The notes below the pieces were generated by a model. It worked only from the letters and a program-made list of their open reading frames with translations, was not told the DNA's origin and searched no databases. This document shows, piece by piece, positions 1,122 to 58,841 of a DNA stretch of 64,000 nt. The DNA is from Dioscorea cayenensis subsp. rotundata (taxonomy: Eukaryota; Streptophyta; Magnoliopsida; Dioscoreales; Dioscoreaceae): contig NC_052475.1 of NCBI RefSeq assembly GCF_009730915.1, positions 30,503,016-30,567,015 on the forward strand, in the 5' to 3' direction. The translations under genes were made by a program, and so were the position numbers. The first letter of the stretch is position 1. The number at the start of each line of letters is the position of its first letter.

Positions 1122-2822
1122 TGATGATAAAAGAGTAGAGCTTTGGCAAGGTGCCAAATGAGCATAATACCATGCTTGAGCTGTCGGTTGTTTTGTTCCC
1201 ACATTAGACCTGTCACATGTTATATGTCATGGTTGGTTTGGTTTGAGAATGCCTAACACCTTCTTCTCTCTTTTATACCACATGTACATATATATCTATA
1301 TATCTATATATTTATTCTTATACTTTTTCTTCCTCGTTTTACCTTTTTTTTTTTAAACATCTATAATAATACACTAGGTTGGTCTGTGTGATATATCTTA
1401 AGTTAAAAATATTCTTTATGTTTCATAATATTATTATTGTTAAATAAAGTGTATTTAATAGTTCAATTTATTTCTGGATATTCTTCTTCATCCCCAAAAA
1501 AAGGGCTTTGTTGATTTTTTTATTTTATTTTATTTTATATGGTTATATGATAAAAGAGTATTCTCTCTTATCCACCTTGAACTGACACCAAATGCTCTAT
1601 TTCTTTGAGTGTTTTAATTTTGATGTTGATGGGGAGAACAGTGAACATGAAACAGTAGCTAGCTAGATCTACACCTGAATTTTCTTGGTCAGTGGTTTTT
1701 TTAATTATTATATATTGTCTCAAAGTTGTCTAATTAGCACAATGTCAAAAGGTTGTCCATCCTTTTCAATCTATATTTCACATTATTTGAGGAGATATAT
1801 AATTGATTTTTTTTTTTTCATGTCAATCATCTTGACATGTATGAAGCATTCATGAACCATGATTCCAAAGTGGTTGGATGTTTGAACCTAGATTTTGTAT
1901 TCATTAGTGCTTTGAACTTAGTCTCCTAACTAGTTGATTCAAATTCTATCATCAATGCCACATTAATGCTTATCTAATTAGATTTTCAATTGAAGACACC
2001 TCTTTATGGCTTTGTTCATTCACTCCTATTTTTCTTTTTCATGTTGCTTAATCTATGTTATTGCTGAAATTTAAAATTTAATATATTAGACATAAGCGCC
2101 GGTCAAGATTATATATATACTTCATCAATAAAGTTGGCCCAAATGATAAGAGTATGTGTTAATTAATTAAATGATGTTGAATTAGAATTTTTATACATTC
2201 AAAAACATATATTTATTGAGACAAATATATCCAAATAAAGTTTTCAATATATCGCATGCACTTCTCACTTATTTTATTTAAATTATATGAAATAAAATTA
2301 TTATTTAAAATTAATATAAAATTTATTGTCATATTTGACATATTGCGTAGATTTATTGTATTAGCAAAAAAAAACCTACTCTCATATATTAATTTGTTTA
2401 TTTTAATATGATATCTAATTACTCAAAACAACTGCTATAAATTCTAACAAATAAAAAAAATGAGAGAAATAATTCAACAGTTGATATTGAACATTCAATT
2501 ATTGAATTATTTTCAGAATTATAAGTTGTTTTGACTTACTTAATTTCTCTAGTAAACAAAACCCTTTAATTAACTTCAAACGGCCATGGACCAAATAATT
2601 ACAGTGTGTTTTTTTTTTTTTACCAATTAGTAGTAATTTTGCAAGAAAAGGGATATATGATTTTAGAATTTATAGAGATATACATGCAAATACGCACAAA
2701 TAGTGTTCGCCAATCGTGAACTGCCACGTAATCACCGTAGCGAGTTCAATGATGGTCAGTCCTAGGTTAGTTAACGTGATCCGCGGTCCACCAGATCACT
2801 CAACCTCCATTCCGACAACGAA
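168..2822. other. Intergenic, AT-rich, with microsatellites
   Basis: This stretch holds the 3' UTR of the upstream gene and the promoter of the next. It includes an (AAAG)n run at 341-364, a (TA)n run near 437-456 and a (CT)n run at 1094-1121. Short open frames here are low complexity and show no splice structure. I see no convincing gene. Confidence 0.6.
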
Positions 2823-5800
2823 ATGGCGAGGATTCGAAACCAGCTCGGTCGCGGGGGGGCTCCCGCTGCGATCTGGATCTCCTCCTTGCTTCTCTTCTAC
2901 CTCGCATTTAGATCGATCAAGGAGAATTCCAGTCCTGGTACTCCATCTTCGTAGTTATCCGCTTTCAGATTTTCCCCAATTTTTTTAGGAATTTTTCGGT
3001 CCTGGAATCAGAGTCAATGGTGTTGGTCTCAGATCAGAGGTCTAGGTTATATGAGAAGATGTCCCGGGATCTGGATGAGAAAGGGGCTGCGTTTCTCAGA
3101 GGTGGAGAGACCTCTCAGTCGCTCTCCCTTTCCGATATCTTCGATTTGAGAGATGGGGTCGTGACGCCGAAGCTCAAGGTTTGGTTGAATTCTTGATGTG
3201 GTTTTGTTGTATTTTAAAGTAAAAATTAATTTTTCCCTCTTTTTTGTTAGATTAGGCTGCGGATCCTCCTGTTCGGGCTACTGTGCTTTATATGGGTACC
3301 GATTTTTCGATGCCTATCTCGTAAGTTTTATTTAATTTTTATCATTATTATTTTTCATGTTTTTCCTCTGAATTTTCCCTCATAATTCATTGGCATGGAA
3401 TTTAGTTCTTATAGAATGCTTGGATTTTTTTTATCCAAAATTTGTTTTGGTTGGTTTGCTACAGGGAAGCTGTAAGAGATGTATTTCTTCCCTATTTTGG
3501 TCAAGGTAACACCTTTTGTTTGATATGATTTAATTTTGTACTCTGTTGTAAGATGCAAAGATTGTTATATAGAATAGAATAAGCACATTTGGAGTCTCTT
3601 CAATTCATTTGTTTGATTTATGTAGTGAGAAGATTGATAAAATCTTTGGTTGCCTTGGGCAGCTATTTGGTTTCAGAATTCAAGTCTCTACCATTTCAGT
3701 ATGTTTCATGCCTCCCATCATATTACTTCTGTTGTCGCAACTGATAGTGAGGTATGCTGTGAAATTGCTGTTATTTTCAGCATCGTGGTGAGTTTGTATT
3801 ATGGTACTGATTTTATTTTTTCTGATTCTTGAGATTGAAGCTGAGGCAAATGCTATCAAAGTTGTTGCAGAGAGCCTTTGTCCTTTGGATATTGTTTTAG
3901 ATAGAGTGATATTGACATCAACTGGGGTGCTTCTAGGTTGTTGGCAGGTTTGTACATTACTATCGTGGGAGTTTTTTAGAACATCATGCATTGCTAATCT
4001 TGTTTGGAGTCCTTTGAATTTATTTATTTATTTATTTTTAAATGGCTGCTTATTGTGTGCTTTACCTTGCAAAAATTTTGAATCTCTCCGCAATATGATC
4101 TATTACTCCATTATATACTTATTGTACTTGTTTTGTTTATTGTTTTCTTATAATATGAAGATTTCACCACTTGTAATGATCCTGATTAACCAATTAACAT
4201 GGCTGAGAAAACTTTTGTGCGCCCCTAATGTTCTGGTTTGCTCAGTATTGTTATGATTTGAGTGGCTGTAGAGTGTGGCAATTTTGTTTTATGATATGAT
4301 CTTGATGGTTTACTGCTTGCTAATTGTAAAGAATGATATGGGATACCATATGGCACATCGTACATTATGTAACTCAAACACAATTTAGAACTTAAAGGAT
4401 GCAATTTCTAATGTAACAAATCATATTTCCTCAGAGAGCATATATTTTAAATCCATATTGTTTCCCTGCTGAGGCTTGCGTCCATGCCTGGTTCTTAGCA
4501 ATAATGTCCATATTGATCGCTGTAGGGGAAAAAAAAAAAAACCCGACAACAGATCATCTCAGGATTGGACCATAGGTGAAGGGACATAGAAAGAAAGAGG
4601 GAGAAGATAATAATATATTATAATAAACCAAACTTTTATAATATATTCTCCAGAGTCATACCTTAGACTTTTTATGATCATATAGGCTTGTTTATTTCTT
4701 TCTAAATATCAGATACTTCCTAATGAAATGATAATATTTTGAAATACATGTAATTTCTAAATAACAATGCAACTAAATATAAACTCACCAAGCATATTTA
4801 AAATCCTAAACATATTCTAAAAATGATTTGATGTGGTATAATTTTCTTTTTGTTGAGTTTCTTTCTTCTTAGACATCTATGGTTTTTCAGAACTCATCTT
4901 TCCCATATTCCAGGTCCTCTCTGGTACAGATCCTGTGACAATTCGGAAAAAGTTGAAAGATGCCCTTCCCCGTGCACCAGAAAAGCAATTAGTAAGACAA
5001 TGGCTCTTTTGGCTATCCTTTGCACAAAAACTAGTTCTTCTTATGCTTTTCATGCTACTAATAAAATAATAAATTATGGAATATGAGTTTTCATAGCCAT
5101 TAAAAAAATACACCTGTTCATCTTCCCTGCTTATGTGTCATTCTCCCTGAAGAACAATTACAGCACAATCTTTTTTCTTTGAAGGAATTACATGCTTCAC
5201 ATTGTTGGATTGGCATAACATGCACGAATTGTTATTGTGAATACTTTTTCTCCATTTTAATTTTGTGTTTCCTGTTATGTGTGCAGTATGATCCTCTTAT
5301 ACTTCATACTTCATTTGCAAGGGTTTTGGGACCTCCAAAGGTTCCAGTGGAGGTACTTTTTTAACTGCAGCATGAATTTTGTTAGCATAAATATGTCTTA
5401 ATTGTTGTTCCATCTTTACTCGCAAGTGAGAGCAAATCGTTTACTCATGCACATTGGCAATATTTTTTTTTTTATCTCATAAAATATATCTCCAACAAGA
5501 AATGAATAATTCCTTATTTTCCAATTTGTTAACATACAATACCTGTTTTCCATGATCATTTCTAAAATATTCATGTCATTTTTTAAATTATCTTATGCAA
5601 CACTGTTGTCTTCTAGGAGATGGAGAAGCCCTTCAATCAACTTCAGTTTTTCCACAATCTTGTTGAACGCATCAACAGCAAGATTCATGGTTTTAAGGTA
5701 GAAGTACATTCCAGTGTCCTCACCTGAGCAGGTTTCTGTTTGTTTACAATTGAGTTGCAATGACATTGTCTACAAATATCTTACAGATGTTTTTCTTTGT

Positions 5801-36505: not shown

Positions 36506-36540
36506 ATTCTACCTAATAATAATAATAATAATATTTAAAG

Positions 36541-36654
36541 AATAATGCTATATACAATGAAGAAACCACACGACACCAGCCACACGACTGATGTCGCTGG
36601 TGACATGGAATTTTTTTTAATTAAAAAAAATATTGATAAAGTAACACGTGAGTT

Positions 36655-36693
<39 letters not shown>

Positions 36694-36920
36694 GCTACCC
36701 TCCCCCACTCTCGGCCTCGTCCCGGCTGCCGTTTCTCTCCCCGCCTCGGCCCCAGTCTGCCGCTTCTCTCCCCGCCACGTCCCACGGCCCCGTCCCGGCC
36801 CTGCTTTCTCTCCCCGTTCCGGCCCCGTCCCTGCCGCTTCTCTCCCTTCTCTCCCTCGCCCCCGGCCCCCGTCCCGGTTACCGCTTCTCGTACACCAGAA
36901 TTTCAGAGAACCAGCCACAC

Positions 36921-36955
<35 letters not shown>

Positions 36956-37241
36956 TCCCACACAAAAGAGACACAAACTATGGTCGACCTGTGCCCTAGT
37001 TTCTCTTCAAAGCCAAACGAGAAAGGGGTGACGGCCGGGAACGGGGAGGAAAGCGGCGGCCTGGAGCACAGAGCCACACGAGAGAGAGAGAGATTGAGAG
37101 AGTCCGACACGAAAGAGACACGACCTGTGCCCTAATGTTTATTTAATATATTTTTTTTAATTAAAAAAATATCCACGTCACCAACCACATCAGTCGTGTG
37201 GCTGGTGTCGTGGGGTTTTCTTCGCTCTATATAGCATTATT
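36541..37241. mobile_element. Short Mutator-like non-autonomous element
   Basis: 701 bp with TIRs of about 92 bp. The left begins AATAATGCTATATACAATGA and the right, reverse-complemented, AATAATGCTATATAGAGCGA; both continue with CCACACGACACCAGCCACAC. The interior is very GC-rich and built of degenerate (CCGCTTCTCTCCCCG)-like units plus CT and GA runs. Long TIRs point to Mutator. A clear 9-bp target duplication was not found. There is no transposase frame. Confidence 0.72.
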
Positions 37242-37491
37242 TAATAATAAATTTGAAAAAGAGTAAAGCAGTTTAAGCACCACGAATGAGAGATAGCCAG
37301 ATGGATATATAGATATATAGAGTAGCATAGATGCTTGTCTTGTACCAAAGGAACAACATCATTCAAGAATGCATCAATCGTGCGGCCAATAATGCTCCCC
37401 TCTTTCATGCATCGACTTCTTATCAAGGGCATCAATTACTTCTATTTCAATTTAAATCTTATATATTTTTTCTATTCAAAGAAAATTCTAA

Positions 37492-46591: not shown

Positions 46592-48108
<1,517 letters not shown>

Positions 48109-50466: not shown

Positions 50467-50804
50467 GAGTAATGCTATATCTGCCGAAGGAGTTACACAA
50501 ACTGATTGCACGAATGACGTGGCATCCACGTGTTCGTGCACAGTTCTAGTGTCAGCCTTATATTAAATAAATAAATTAATAACAATTAAATCAAATCTGA
50601 TGAAAAAAAGAGAGCATCAAAGTAGGGCATCTTCTCCCCGTGACCTCTAAATCTCCTCCTATACTCCACTAGGGCTCTCTTCTCTTTTCTCACCGTGGCA
50701 TTCTCCGCCCACCGGCGTCGAACCCAGCTAGGGCTCTCTTCTCTTTTCTTGCCGAACCCCATCAACTTTATATCTACCTCTCTTAAAACATACTCTCTCT
50801 TAAA

Positions 50805-50839
<35 letters not shown>

Positions 50840-53800
50840 CCCTAGCTGCCGCTCTCCGGTGGCTAGCCGCCGGAGTGTCTCCCACCTCAGATGCCGCTCT
50901 CCGCCTCCCTAAGCTCTCCCGTGCCCTAGCCCGCAGAGTTTCTCCGACCACGGATGCCGGTCTCCTCACTCATACTTCTCCCTGAATTCTGATTATGGTG
51001 AGAAATTTGTTCATGAGTTGGTTTTGTGTATATATGAAACCTACTTGATTAACAAATTATTAAGTTTCTTGCATTACATGTTTCTAATGTATTTTGTTTG
51101 TTGTACATAATAGGGATGATTTTGTTTGGCGATGTTCCTATACCTTCAGGCATTTCATGTGGTGATGAAGCTATTAGTGTCGAGACAATTGAAGTTGCAT
51201 ATGCATAAATGCTTTTATTTATGTTTGGCTGTTGTGAATTGGAACTCCTTTTGATTGTGAAATTGTTGATGGCTTATAATCAAATTTCTTCAAAAGGTGC
51301 ATGTTGTTGATGCTTGAATGCTTGCACCATTTTTGATAATTTTGTGTTTGTGATTTCCTTTCATTATAATAGTTTAAAAAAAAAAAGTCAATCTTTGATC
51401 TATTTATTTATTAAATTATGTTCTTTAATATAGTCTTGGTATATATATTGATTGGGTGATCATCAGGAACATGAAAGATAGATTCCTCAAAAAAACATAG
51501 AAACCAGTTATGATAACTTTCTCTATTTGTGTTTGATTCATCAGTTTATAAAAGATGATAACTTTCTCGATTTGTGCTGTATGGTTTTGAAAACTAAATA
51601 GAATGGTTTCGTATGGTTTTCTGGATGCATCCTTTGTGTTGTTTGTGTAGTATGGCTTGATTCAAGCTTTGTGTTCTTCATGAATGCAAAGTTGCTGTAG
51701 TTTTCATGATTTTGGGAACTTTAGTTGATGCTGATTAGAGATGTCTGTTAAAGGCCAATTACATATTCAACTGATTACTGTTTAAATTCAATATTACAGA
51801 CCAAATATAGAATTCATTTTGGTCAAGAAAAATACAGAATTCAAACCTTGCATTCCAGAATTGATCTCATATACATTAGCTTCAACAATTTTTCAAATTA
51901 TTCATAATACAACTCTTAGCATTATACAACTTCAAAATATGCATTTCAGAATTATCTCATACTACAACTCTTAGCATAAAACAAAACTTCACAGTGAATT
52001 GGTATACCTGAACAAGAAATCAGCCTGCAAAGATGAAATATCAATAATAATAACACAAAAGAATCATTTTGTTGGTATACCTGAACAAAGATGTATACCT
52101 GAACAAGAGACAGCAACCCTTGATTTCCATCATTCTTATGAACATAAAAAATAAAAAATAAAACAACTCCTCCCAAAGCTTTTTAAACAAGAAAAATATA
52201 AAATCCTCAAAACTAAGAAGAATACCATATTTCAAGTGTTCTCACCAATTGCAATTTGTTAAGGAATATGACAATGATTTTCAACAGATTTCTCTACCCA
52301 AATTCTCAATAGTGCAAGAAAAAGACAGATAAATACATCTAATCACATGGTTGAGCAATAACTTTTAAATAAACATGTTTCAAAGACAACAATAATTCAA
52401 AGCTGTATATCCTAAACTATATATCAAAACTTCACACTGAATTGGTCTTTAAACCAATCTAATCTAAATTTAAAGGTCAGAATCAAAATAAAGCACAAGT
52501 AAATGGATTTACAAAGCTAATAAAAAATATATAGCAATGTAACTCCTTGACTTGTTTCTCATATGCCCCAAGTTCCGATAGTGCTTGTTAACATTATCCG
52601 CTTGAAAATTATCAATTTCTTCGTGGAAATTAACACAATCTTATATTTTCAAACAGTGGAAGAACTAGTAAACAAAATGAATGACTGATAAATTTGAAAG
52701 CAAGTAAGCTTGAACTAAATCTCAAAATCACTTCCTCAATAGAATAGAAGCTATGACTGATAAATTTGAATGTACAACAATAAACAATAAGAAACATAGA
52801 ATCATAGAAACATAGAAAGCAAGCAAGCATGAATTTCAAGCACATCCATGTCTATTCAGAGACATATGCATGATGAAATCCATTAAGTTTGATGGCTCAG
52901 ATGTGCATAATCTCTATTAGGGACGAACATTGAATCGATGGCTGCAGCAGTAGTTGCCACGCTAGTCGATGTTAGGTTGCGCCTCAACACAGCCATTCCC
53001 TCCAACACCACTAACACCCCTCTATCCCTCAACACCAATTCCCTGCAGTAGCATATGAGTGGCGGTTGCCTACTGAGGAGCAGGCCGTCCAAGCCACTAC
53101 ACCACTGCTACAGAGACAAAGGAGAAGCAAAAAAGAGGAGAAAATGAGAAGAGAAACGCTATATGAGACGAAGAGATTAGATTAATACTATATTCGCTAA
53201 AGGAAAGGGAGACAAGGAGATGAGGAGAGTTAGGGCCAAAGCGGGAAATGACGAGAGTGGGAGATGATGCGACTAAAATCAGGGCTAAGGCACCGGACTG
53301 AAATTAGGAGGAGTAGGGTTCTCGGCGGCGGAGGAGGAATGGCAGAGTTCTCGGCGAAGATGAAAAATTAATTAACTAAAATATAATCACACACACACAA
53401 GTGAGATGGGTTCAGAGATGACCTTGGTGGTGCGATGATAGGTTCAAAGATGATCGGAGTTGGCTTCGGTGAAGGGGTCATCGTCTGCAGGACTTGGTTG
53501 CCGCCGGAGAAGGGGTTCGAAGACGATGAAAGGAGTCGGCGTCTGCATCGTTGTTGGTGATGGGTCAGTGTCGGTAGGGCTAGGATGGCACCAAAGAAAA
53601 GGGGTTCGAAGATGATGAATTGTGTCGACGTTGGTGTTGTTGTCAACGTCAGTGTTGGGGTTCGGTGAGAAAAGAGAAGAGAGCCCTAGTGGAGTATAGG
53701 AGGAGATTTAGAGGTCACGAGGAGAAGATGCCTTACTTTGATGCTCTTTTTTTTCATCAGATTTAATTTAATTATTATTAATTTATTTATTTAATATAAG

Positions 53801-53890
53801 GTTGATATCGGAACTGTGCACAAACACGTGGATGCCACGTCGTTCGTGCAATCAGTTCGTGTAAGTCCTTCTACAGATATAGAATTACTC
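50467..53890. mobile_element. Mutator-like element with long TIRs (3.4 kb), apparently non-autonomous
   Basis: A perfect 9-bp target duplication TTTTTTAAA lies at 50458-50466 and 53891-53899. The inverted repeats, about 229 bp each (50467-50695 and 53663-53890), begin GAGTAATGCTATATCTG (left) and, reverse-complemented, GAGTAATTCTATATCTG (right), with about 90% identity along their length. The 2.97-kb interior lacks any mudrA transposase frame I can recognise. It has a (CT)n tract, a GC-rich left part (50850-50990) with a splice-like donor and a downstream AG, and a GC-rich right part (53280-53650). This could be a Pack-MULE holding copied host fragments, or a deletion derivative. Confidence 0.9.
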
Positions 53891-55241: not shown

Positions 55242-57416
55242 AAACCTCATTAGCCATTTGAAAATCTTAGATCCTTCATTGGCTACGTCATGGCTTATAT
55301 CATTTTGTTTTATTTTTATTTTCTCTTGTTGTTTTCTCTAATAGCTGAGTACTATTATCTTTGGTTTTTGGCCAATTATTTATTGGTTTTTTAATGCATT
55401 GTGGTACATCTACATTTATACAAAAATAAAAAATATGAAAATCATGGTGCAAAGTTATGATCTAAACAACCAGCCCTGATTGTATATGGACTATGACTAA
55501 CACATTATTAGCTTGATGATAATACCATTAATTTTACAAGCTAAGATGACACAAAAGCATCCAACTTTGCCATCTTCTTCCAAATCTAATCATGCTTACT
55601 ATTTCCTTTCCACTCACTAGACCCATTCTCTATTCTATTCTTAGCGCATGATGTAATTATTACAATCATTTTTTTCCAATCTTTTCAAAAAGTTAATCTC
55701 ATAACTATAAACCAGATAGTTTGCATGCTCTTTACAACTACTGATCAAACAAACTAAATTAGTTAAATTAGCAATACATGTACTTCAAATCTAATTAGAA
55801 TAACTTGTCCTAATTAGAAACTATACTCAAATTCATTAAATTTTCCATTCAAACTCTCCCATATTGTTAAATATTTTTAATTAATTAGAAACTTATTGAT
55901 TAATCAGGATGAAAACAAGTAAGAAAACAGAAGAAAGGAGAAGATGGTCGGAAGATGGTGGAACAAGCCAAATGTACTTTTAAAGTTACTTGGTCATGTT
56001 CATGTAGAGTGGTTGGGAGAGGATATCATGGACAAGGCTCAAAAAAGGTTCAAATAATGACTTATTTGAATACCTTAATTACTTGATTAGGAGACACTTA
56101 ATATTCCCTTAATTGGAAAATGGAGACATGGGTCCCTTAAATTAGGCTTTTTAACAATTAAATTCTAGTGACATTAACTAAACCATCTAAGTCTAGCTCT
56201 TTCTTTTATTTTTTTATTTTTAAGAGCTTATTCAAAGAATCAAACTATTAATTCAAAGTGTGCCTAGGCTGAGATTGGAATCGTGTTGTAGGTTTTCTTT
56301 TTTTTTTTAAGACAAATAATTAAATGTGTGGTGTTCATGTTTAGTCTAGTCATGAGTCATATCTTACGGTCCATTTGGATCAAGAAATATAAATGATAAT
56401 GGAAAAAAAACCCTCCATTTGGATGATAGAATAGGGATGGGGATGGGAATGAAGAGAATCGAAGGGGGATGGGGATGGGAATGGGAATGGGGCAATGAAT
56501 AGAATGAAAACTTTGTTTTATTAAAAGGATAATTTTTTAGGAAGAGAAAAAGTAAAATGATGGGATTTGAAGAAATTACCTTCATATCCTTTAAAATAAA
56601 ATAAGTGATATAAAAATATTTAAATGATTTTAATTTTTAATGTATTTCAAATGTGATTATTTATTTTAATAATATAATTAAATAGTTTAATTGTAAATTC
56701 ATTTTCTTAGTCTTGCAATATTTTTTTTTAGTTTTTTAATTAATTACTTAAAGTAAATATTTTAATTAAATATTTTAAGTTGATTAAATTGATTAATTAT
56801 ATTTTTTAATTCAAGCTAAATAGTACTTTATTAAATCTAAACATCCAAATATATAACCAAACTTATGGTATAATTCATACAACACATCACACACAACAAT
56901 CCTGCAACACACTATACTCACCTTACTCAGGGGTGGACCCACATGGGTGACAGCCGGGGCTGAAATAACTCGGTCAAAAATCAGGTGACTCGGCCGGTTT
57001 ACTAGAGAACCGATAATTAACCCGGCCGGGTATAACCGACACCTGAGCCAATGGAAGTGATATTTTAATTTTAATTTTTTGTTTTTTTGAGTCCCGATGA
57101 AGCCTAGGGTGAGAGGGTTATCATTAGATTTTTTTTTTTAAAAAAATTATATATTTTTAAATATTAAATTTATATTTCAGATATTTTAAAAATTAAGAAA
57201 AATATATAAAATAAAATTTTACATATCACTTTTATTTAATTATATTTTTAATTATTAAAATATAGATTATATTATTTTTTCTATTATTAATAATTATTAT
57301 ATTTTTTTTAATATTTTATTATTAACCCCGGTTTAACCCCGGTTTGATTCGATCAAACCCATAAACTCTTGACCACTTAGCTTGACTGGGTTAATACCGG
57401 GCCGAATCTGACTACC
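55242..57416. other. AT-rich spacer with G-rich tract and repeat remnants
   Basis: A G-quadruplex-type tract lies at 56464-56492. 56936-57412 contains CGG-rich patches at both ends (for example around 56990-57050 and 57325-57410) that may be remnants of a small transposon; clear paired termini were not found. No gene is seen. Confidence 0.45.
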
Positions 57417-58841
57417 TTGGCTGAAACTGTGAGCTTTGCCCCTGAGATTATCCGTGGTGGTGAGTCTATTCGGTCAATCTTCTCCATTCTCAATCGTGGC
57501 ACCCGCATGAACTCTGATGACCCAGAAGCTGAGCCAGTGGACTCAATACATGGTGACATTAAGCTCCGGCATGTGGACTTCTCCTATCCATCACGACCTG
57601 AGGTCCCCATCTTCAAGGAATTTAACATTCGCATTTGTGCTGGTCACAACAAGGTGATGGTAGGATCAAGTGGGGCAGGGAAGAGCACAGTCATTACCCT
57701 TATCGAACGGTTTTATGATCCTACTGATGGGAAAGTATTGATCGACGGCAAGGACATCAGAAGACTGCATTTGAAATCCCTGGTGCTCAAGATTGGGTTG
57801 GTGCAGCAAGAGCCTGTGCTATTTGTCTTTGACAACATTGCTTATGGAAGAGATGGCGTGACAGAGGAGGAAGTGCTTGACACAGTGAAAACTGCAAATG
57901 TGCATGGTTTCATAAGTGCATTTCCAGATGGATACAAGATTGCAGTTGGAGAAAGTGGCGTGCAACTATCAAGTGGTCAAAAGTAGAGGATTGCCATTGC
58001 TCGAGAGGTGCTCAAAGACCCTGCAGTGCTGTAACTGAATGAGGGAACTAGCTAGGGATGACAACGGGTCGGATCCGGGGTTTGCCATATCTGTACCTGC
58101 ACCCGCTATCCCGCCTCCATACCCGAACCCGAACCCAAACCTGACAGGTTTTCAAAACCCCAACCCACACCCGCACCCGATGGGTAATCAGGTACCCGCG
58201 GAGATACCCACCCTGCCATGACCATATTTAAAAATATTTAAAATAAAAATAAAATATAAAGTAAAAATTAAAATGTTAATCCAAAATCATAGTTTTTTTG
58301 TTTTTGTTTAAATGAACACCATAGAGTAAGAATTGAAAATAAAAATTGAAAGCAACACAAAATAAACAAATTTAACACCATGGAGTTGGAGTGGGAATTT
58401 AAAACCCTAACAAAAAAAAATTGAAAATTTATATAATTGAATATATTTGTTAATTGAATTTCGGGTTCGGGTTCGGGTCGGGTATCAGAATTCCCATATC
58501 CGCACCCGTACCTGCTTTATATTAGTCAGGATTTACCCGAACCTGACCCGAAACCTGGTCAAACCAAGTTTTATTCGTCAAACTCGAGTCGAGTCGGATT
58601 TGGGGATTATTGTCATCCTTGCAACAAGCTCATTGGATGCAGAATCAGAAACCGTGCTGCAAGATGCTCTAATCGTTGCACACTGGCTATCGACTATTCG
58701 AGGTGTGGAGAATGTAGCAGTGGTGCAAGACGGATGTATTACCGAACAAGGGAGTCACTCTTAATGGTGCACGCCTACTCAAGACTGTAGCAGCTGCAGC
58801 ATCACCACATCTGAGTGAAGAACCAAAACACACCTCAGGGA
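57417..58841 (+). pseudogene. ABCB19: ABCB19-like (P-glycoprotein) pseudogene, second NBD fragment
   Basis: From 57417 an open stretch of 189 codons reads AETVSFAPEIIRGGESI, then Walker A (GSSGAGKST), the Q-loop (GLVQQEP) and a signature LSSGQ (family LSGGQ), matching the second nucleotide-binding domain of plant ABCB19-type auxin exporters. TAG then replaces the next codon. Walker B is damaged: a stop interrupts it and Asn replaces its Asp (LNEGTS for LDEATS). The frame resumes after an inserted element as TSSLDAESE... [10 protein letters not shown]... ITEQGSHS, with some residues lost before the H-loop. The 5' part of the gene and all transmembrane segments are missing, and no intron interrupts 600 bp. 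It is a non-functional fragment, possibly from retroposition or transposon capture. Confidence 0.9.
58053..58621. mobile_element. hAT-type MITE inserted in the ABCB pseudogene
   Basis: 569 bp, left end TAGGGATGACAA and right end reverse-complemented CAAGGATGACAA. Flanks are GAACTAGC (58045-58052) and CAACAAGC (58622-58629), an 8-bp target duplication with two differences. The subterminal regions are rich in GGGTTCGGGT / ACCCGAACCC repeats. The insertion lies exactly between Walker B and the D-loop of the ABCB fragment; removing it would bring the D-loop (SSLDAESE) next to LNEGTS. Confidence 0.85.

Follow-up and report, generated by a model that had tools for sequence, protein, structure and literature searches.

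A mosaic Mutator-like element, probably of the Jittery/FAR1 type, with largely non-coding host-type cargo in Dioscorea cayenensis subsp. rotundata

The closest described systems are Jittery-type Mutator-like elements (MULEs), Pack-MULEs and MULE families with transduplicated gene sequence. In the part of PMC6446971 compared here, group 36 is a Jittery sub-group of dicots and monocots with FAR1 at the N-terminus and SWIM or CCHC at the C-terminus, TIRs of 39–292 bp or none, and a target-site duplication that is either 8 bp or not indicated. Pack-MULEs, in the portion of PMC4858842 used for comparison, are defined by captured protein fragments, and their parents are mainly GC-rich in rice and relatives. 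The relevant portion of PMC2528002 describes a grapevine MULE family with intronic and exonic cellulose synthase gene sequence as well as captures in other superfamilies. For tomato MULEs with additional TIRs, acquisition is given as one suggested cause in the corresponding part of PMC3310237; an extract of PMC8277862 treats the breakpoints of captured pieces in animals, with a median microhomology of 2 bp and a discussion of template switching, and PMC13317346, likewise considered in part, reviews capture.

The element described here lies in a stretch of 64,000 nucleotides (the window; C5:30503016–30567015), and the genome searched comprises 584 Mb in 2249 contigs. As far as the compared portions of these sources go, the window element resembles the Jittery/FAR1 MULEs of PMC6446971 in a TIR length within 39–292 bp, in a short target duplication and in having relatives whose transposase includes FAR1 and SWIM parts; unlike them, the window copy encodes nothing and its duplication is 9 bp. 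It shares with the Pack-MULEs of PMC4858842 that it is non-autonomous, has TIRs and a duplication, and has more than one parent, the parents being without TIRs; however, its cargo is AT-rich, resembles intron and 3' non-coding sequence, and has its two main pieces in antisense orientation. The likeness to the grapevine transduplications of PMC2528002, where Jittery-like families also occur, is MULE capture of intronic/exonic sequence; the parents are different, and the window element adds a block from a second MULE family. Terminus-like sequence inside the element recalls the additional-TIR MULEs of PMC3310237, but amounts to a pair of short degenerate motifs, both on the 3' side, rather than a full second TIR. 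Because intron capture has already been published (PMC2528002), the element belongs to a known kind, and nothing in the compared parts of this literature makes it a new one.

Borders, relatives and coding capacity

The element occupies 3.4 kb (50467–53890), and its features are collected in Table 1. Its TIRs align over 229 columns, 212 of which are identical (92.6%, or 93.0% if the single gap column is left out), slightly more than the approximately 90% given in a preliminary description of this DNA. They end in GAGTAATGCTATATCTG on the left and GAGTAATTCTATATCTG on the right, and both flanks read TTTTTTAAA, a perfect 9-bp duplication; the TIR pair and this duplication bear out the exact borders proposed in that description. 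Matches to the left TIR number at least 23 in the genome, the element's own two ends among them, so that further genomic copies of the TIRs are present, and long TIRs are common to dispersed copies, as in MULEs. Eleven TIR-matching stretches (L009–L019) were compared. Both ends were fixed in L009, L010, L011, L012 and L013; L014–L019, in which both ends were not fixed, are left out of the count of delimited copies. TIRs together with a duplication occur in six of six elements delimited at both ends, the window element included. The duplication is perfect in L009 on C11 (CAAAGAATA), in L012 (ATAAAGAAA) and in L010 (10 bp), and is 9 bp long with one mismatch in L011 and L013; the flanks of L009–L013 were compared by eye, and the ends of L012 and L013 lie a few bases off the preset ends. 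A length of 9–10 bp in the window copy and in all five other delimited copies is inside the 8–11 bp of MULEs. Given the number of genomic TIR matches and the duplications in five other elements, the TIR/duplication structure is beyond chance.

Table 1. Features of the element and its segments (window position = element position + 50466)
Feature	Window position	Element position	Strand	Content or similarity
Left target-site duplication TTTTTTAAA	50458..50466		.	flank sequence
Left TIR, 229 bp	50467..50695		+	212/229 columns identical to right TIR
TIR region		1-298
Second FAR1-type MULE family blocks		295-517 and 517-1038
Fragment like inner TIR of second FAR1-type MULE family (L036/L037)	50761..50983		+
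Fragment like stretch 3' of L036/L037 transposase	50983..51504		+	similarity to L036, L037
Stretch like HD-ZIP IV 3'UTR intron-like sequence (L053)	51039..51123		+	74% of 123 columns
Stretch like locus L043 (C8:13.65 Mb)	51215..51462		+	79.5% of 259 columns; also in L036/L037
Interior holding host-type pieces		1044-2391
Stretch like locus L052 (C15:1.875 Mb)	51671..51764		-	86.7% of 90 columns
Glycine-rich-protein gene 3' side, second part	51814..52003		-	L044, 86% of 129 columns; contains short internal direct repeat
Sequence upstream of DPM3 gene (L041), presumed leader intron	52001..52684		-	75.7% of 794 columns
Glycine-rich-protein gene end, first part	52717..52857		-	L044, 81% of 145 columns; about six last codons, stop, start of 3' side
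Family tail and right TIR		2411-3424
MULE 3' tail block, common with transposase-bearing relatives	52877..53244		+
Inner continuation of right TIR	53363..53662		-
Right TIR, 228 bp	53663..53890		-	alignment with left TIR
Right target-site duplication TTTTTTAAA	53891..53899		.	flank sequence

Transposase-bearing relatives, which were sought, are represented by L013 (5.4 kb; TIRs 70–78% like those of the window element). Between its TIRs, Pfam recognizes PF10551 (MULE, 1e-32) and PF04434 (SWIM, 2e-6) in two separate open frames, and tblastn with the transposase pieces of L036, L037 and L047 finds a FAR1-like part. This relative, the TIRs and the 9-bp duplication uphold the classification as a Mutator-like element. 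PF10551 and PF04434 were likewise found in L045, and PF03101 in L036, L037 and L038; a transposase of the L013 kind, accompanied by the shared 3' tail block, is present in L015, L018 and L045–L049. Candidates for the MULE domain number 3312 in the genome, 150 of which were scored. In the comparison of loci, matches of at least 45 bases were kept, up to 40 per locus, and an unrelated repeat in the L042 query, which gives long matches to L046–L049, was disregarded. Because the transposase of L013 has MULE, SWIM and FAR1-like parts, the family looks to be of the Jittery/FAR1 type, where the FAR1 and SWIM parts are those of the relatives' transposase only and none is in the window copy.

Judged by its translated frames, the window copy itself is non-autonomous and encodes no transposase, as in Pack-MULEs and in line with the preliminary description. 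In six frames of the element, with stops read as X, no Pfam family exceeded its cut-off, and five transposase pieces of relatives gave a single 22-residue tblastn match (E 0.51) within the TIR. The longest stop-to-stop frame (127 codons) lies in simple TIR-side sequence. Two unrelated families below their cut-offs, XAF1_C (E 0.014) and ITAM_Cys-rich (E 0.15), were taken as chance.

Three further observations concern the surroundings. At 36540–37242, the window contains a second, short MULE-like terminus pair (GAATAATGCTATAT, AAATAATGCTATAT) with an adjoining AAT repeat and no clear 9-bp duplication by eye. A tubulin gene on the minus strand (46595–48093), which we take to be alpha-type, starts ∼2.4 kb from the element. 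A piece of an ABC-transporter gene on the plus strand (57381–58761) is seemingly interrupted.

A mosaic of MULE-derived and host-type pieces

The GC content per 500 bases is 0.43–0.50 near both ends of the element and 0.28–0.30 between 51000 and 52749. The preliminary description had read the GC-rich parts as host fragments; their matches to MULE ends rule this out, the left part being the TIR plus the inner TIR of another family and the right part the extended 3' end of the element's own family. The other family is represented by L036 and L037, which have their own TIRs and their own transposase. The longer of its two blocks is 93% identical to L036, in two pieces, and 82% identical to L037, with 62 gap positions; among the genome matches listed, the two second-family pieces are nowhere else adjacent. 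At the first join (left break, ∼50761), ATCA is found in both partners, L009 and L036, and at the second (50983), TG is found on both sides in L036 and L037 differs. The third join, near 51504, is not sharp, and no short match is definable there. The short matches at the first two joins (2–4 bp) are possibly fortuitous. The assigned segments cover the element apart from 51510–51670 and some short gaps.

A sister copy, L009, retains the L013-type 5' leader as far as the transposase region (886–1475 versus L013 5578–4816); the window copy is without this leader and has the L036/L037-type pieces in its place. The inner continuation of the TIR is present on both sides in L009 (∼590-bp TIRs) and on the right side only in the window copy. 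In L009, part of the DPM3-containing stretch is also duplicated in tandem (3059–3550 and 3567 onwards), and ∼1 kb (2018–3058) is without assigned origin. The ends and the 3' tail of the window element are colinear with transposase-bearing relatives, and the tail region has matches on C3, C18, C21, C888 and C736; at C3:16.53–16.85 Mb (e.g., L051), several clustered copies are 72–85% like parts of the 3' tail block. Within the tail, terminus-like motifs are seen at window positions 53151 and 53180. Such a pair, ∼30 bp apart, recurs in L009, L013, L019, L045, L046 and L048, and a single motif in L015, L018 and L047; these motifs may represent an ancient additional TIR or sites to which the transposase binds.

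Host-type sequence makes up ∼1.4 of 3.4 kb, about 40% of the element with the L043 and L052 pieces included, and is AT-rich, with hardly any coding sequence. The longest such piece (window 52002–52684, minus strand) corresponds to L041 4080–4861 and stops at an acceptor-like CAG/GTATAC; shortly past this motif, an open frame of L041 leads to DPM3 (PF08285, 6e-12). From this position just before the DPM3 open frame, the stretch is presumed to be a leader intron. It matches the window element at E 3e-101 and L009 at E 6e-115, and otherwise only its own locus among 29 sequences. Searching the genome with the interior returned it on C11 (L009), on C79 (L041) and in the window, among the matches listed; being in so few places, it is seemingly not a common repeat. 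In L044, the second likely parent, a glycine-rich open frame runs up to 4615. The name of this gene rests on composition, because Pfam GRP (0.0065) is under its cut-off and nothing was found at 0.001. L044 4597–4727 and 4736–4891 have counterparts in the window element, L009 and L012 and weaker ones in L010, L011 and L042; among the 29 sequences, these pieces occur in the six MULEs and their own locus only.

The smaller pieces are of several kinds. L053 encodes a PDF2-type C-terminus (PF25797 PDF2_C, 1e-32), i.e., it is an HD-ZIP IV gene, and past its stop lies sequence with an intron-like acceptor that is matched in L036, L037 and the window element. The L052-like stretch is common to L009–L012 and L042. 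L043 and L052 are two more loci that lie outside the MULEs; no Pfam family was found at 0.01 in six frames of L043 2500–6201, in six frames each of L052 and its neighbor L058, or in two of six frames of its neighbor L059. L053 (C15:1858186) and L052 (C15:1875326) are 17 kb apart, and their pieces seemingly entered via different MULE families. As a control, the rest of the window and the reversed element were searched with the six host queries, and neither gave a match at E ≤ 0.01. The host-gene parents, i.e., the DPM3 and glycine-rich-protein loci, are without MULE TIRs, as are the parents of Pack-MULEs.

These matches bear on what kind of derivative the element is. A plain internal deletion of one autonomous MULE, in which the outside matches would be other degenerate MULEs and no host material would be present, agrees with the colinear ends and 3' tail. 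However, L041 has the DPM3 gene, L053 an HD-ZIP IV C-terminus and L044 a glycine-rich open frame, and the transposase pieces have no match at 1e-3 in L041, L043 or L044. We regard an internal deletion as very improbable; it is contradicted for the DPM3 and glycine-rich-gene pieces and possible for the L043 and L052 pieces. The simpler proposal that the interior is MULE sequence only was overturned by the gene context of L041 and L044.

As the preliminary description had supposed, matches of the interior in the same genome go beyond repeats, to the DPM3, glycine-rich-protein and HD-ZIP IV loci. Its designation of the element as a candidate Pack-MULE holds insofar as this is a non-autonomous MULE with host fragments; the grounds were partly wrong, and the strict definition barely applies. 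The splice-like signals adduced there are in part inherited from parent sequences: GTGAGA (50998) and TACAT (51104) are GTGAGT and TACAG in L036 and L037, and the minus-strand CAG/GTATAC at 52002–52011 matches the sequence directly before the DPM3 open frame. Pack-MULE status in the strict sense would imply that coding fragments were captured and are expressed in a chimeric transcript; in its favor is the only coding cargo, namely some six codons plus the stop from the glycine-rich-protein gene. Against it stand the six frames without a Pfam family above cut-off, the simple sequence of the longest frame, and the minus-strand, nearly all non-coding DPM3 and gene-end pieces, and we give it hardly any credence. 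Because the cargo is nearly all non-coding, the strict definition is borderline, and the element, a real and well-delimited MULE of apparent Jittery/FAR1 type, is best called a Pack-MULE with non-coding cargo.

Direction of copying and proposed origin

MULEs frequently insert into non-coding parts of genes. It is conceivable that sequence moved from transposon to gene. In that case, old MULE insertions would have contributed to the intron of the DPM3 gene, to the 3' side of the glycine-rich-protein gene and to the 3' stretch of the HD-ZIP gene, and the element would be all transposon. The homology to L041 does stop near an acceptor-like site. Moreover, MULE-type sequence adjoins the second gene-end piece in L010, L011 and L012, where the neighboring sequence matches transposase-bearing relatives (E ∼1e-3 to 1e-10), and the alignment of L012 2740–3054 with L045 (E 6e-10) crosses this piece. 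Host-type pieces and old MULE family sequence are thus intermingled in the interior, which slightly lowers our confidence in the origin proposed below.

Several lines of evidence nevertheless oppose insertion into the genes as the general explanation. First, and as the best argument for copying from gene to transposon, just 8 bp separate the two gene-end pieces in the gene, as against 0.8–2.4 kb in all six MULEs, where the fillers differ: the window copy and L009 have the DPM3 stretch, L010, L011 and L042 share another filler, and L012 has sequence without match to the filler of those three. Second, the gene-end match starts within the reading frame of the glycine-rich-protein gene. Third, the DPM3, gene-end and L052 pieces are without a good match in 13 relatives, most of them transposase-bearing (L013, L015, L016, L018, L019, L036–L038 and L045–L049): the gene-end and L052 profiles alone had no match at E ≤ 0.9 (best 0.94), and the DPM3 profile had just two 32-base matches (E 0.18 and 0.66). 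Fourth, the terminus motif, allowing ≤2 mismatches, is absent from the seven host-side stretches examined. Thus, we consider transposon-to-gene transfer unlikely. The contiguity argument applies to the glycine-rich-protein gene only; for the DPM3, L043, L052 and HD-ZIP pieces, we presume the same gene-to-transposon direction. The breakpoints are blurred because the host pieces are old (74–87% identity).

We suggest, with considerable confidence, that the element is a non-autonomous Jittery/FAR1-type MULE that grew into a mosaic by repeated faulty gap filling, in which host DNA was copied in. Gap filling itself we infer from the segment mosaic. The relatives would supply, or would formerly have supplied, a FAR1-MULE-SWIM transposase; this enzyme would act on the long TIRs and leave a duplication of 9 bp. 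On excision of a copy, or after a break in its interior, repair synthesis would have moved to unrelated loci as template, and in at least two joins it would have done so at short matches. The transposase gene would have been lost, and the glycine-rich-protein gene end and the L052-like piece would have entered; in a later step, the DPM3 intron would have come to sit inside the captured gene end. In a separate event, in the window copy and not in L009, two pieces of the second FAR1-type MULE family, which would already have carried host-like 3' sequence, would have replaced the 5' leader. Last, the window copy would have transposed to its present site.

One point inside the captured gene end has at least three different fillers (window element and L009; L010, L011 and L042; L012). 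A bolder version of the gap-filling origin, which we put forward tentatively and consider rather unlikely, is that these MULEs have in their middle a slot that has been refilled again and again and that whole ends are swapped between FAR1-type families.

The copies with and without each insert form an ordered capture series in which the likely parents are still readable, and this series helps to test how MULEs acquire host DNA. It also cautions against taking the GC-rich ends of a MULE for host sequence as a matter of course, and against dismissing an AT-rich interior as a possible site of such sequence. The refilled slot, if true, would represent modular evolution via recurrent gap filling with non-coding host DNA, and the captured pieces might then give rise to antisense RNA directed at both DPM3 and the gene for the glycine-rich protein.
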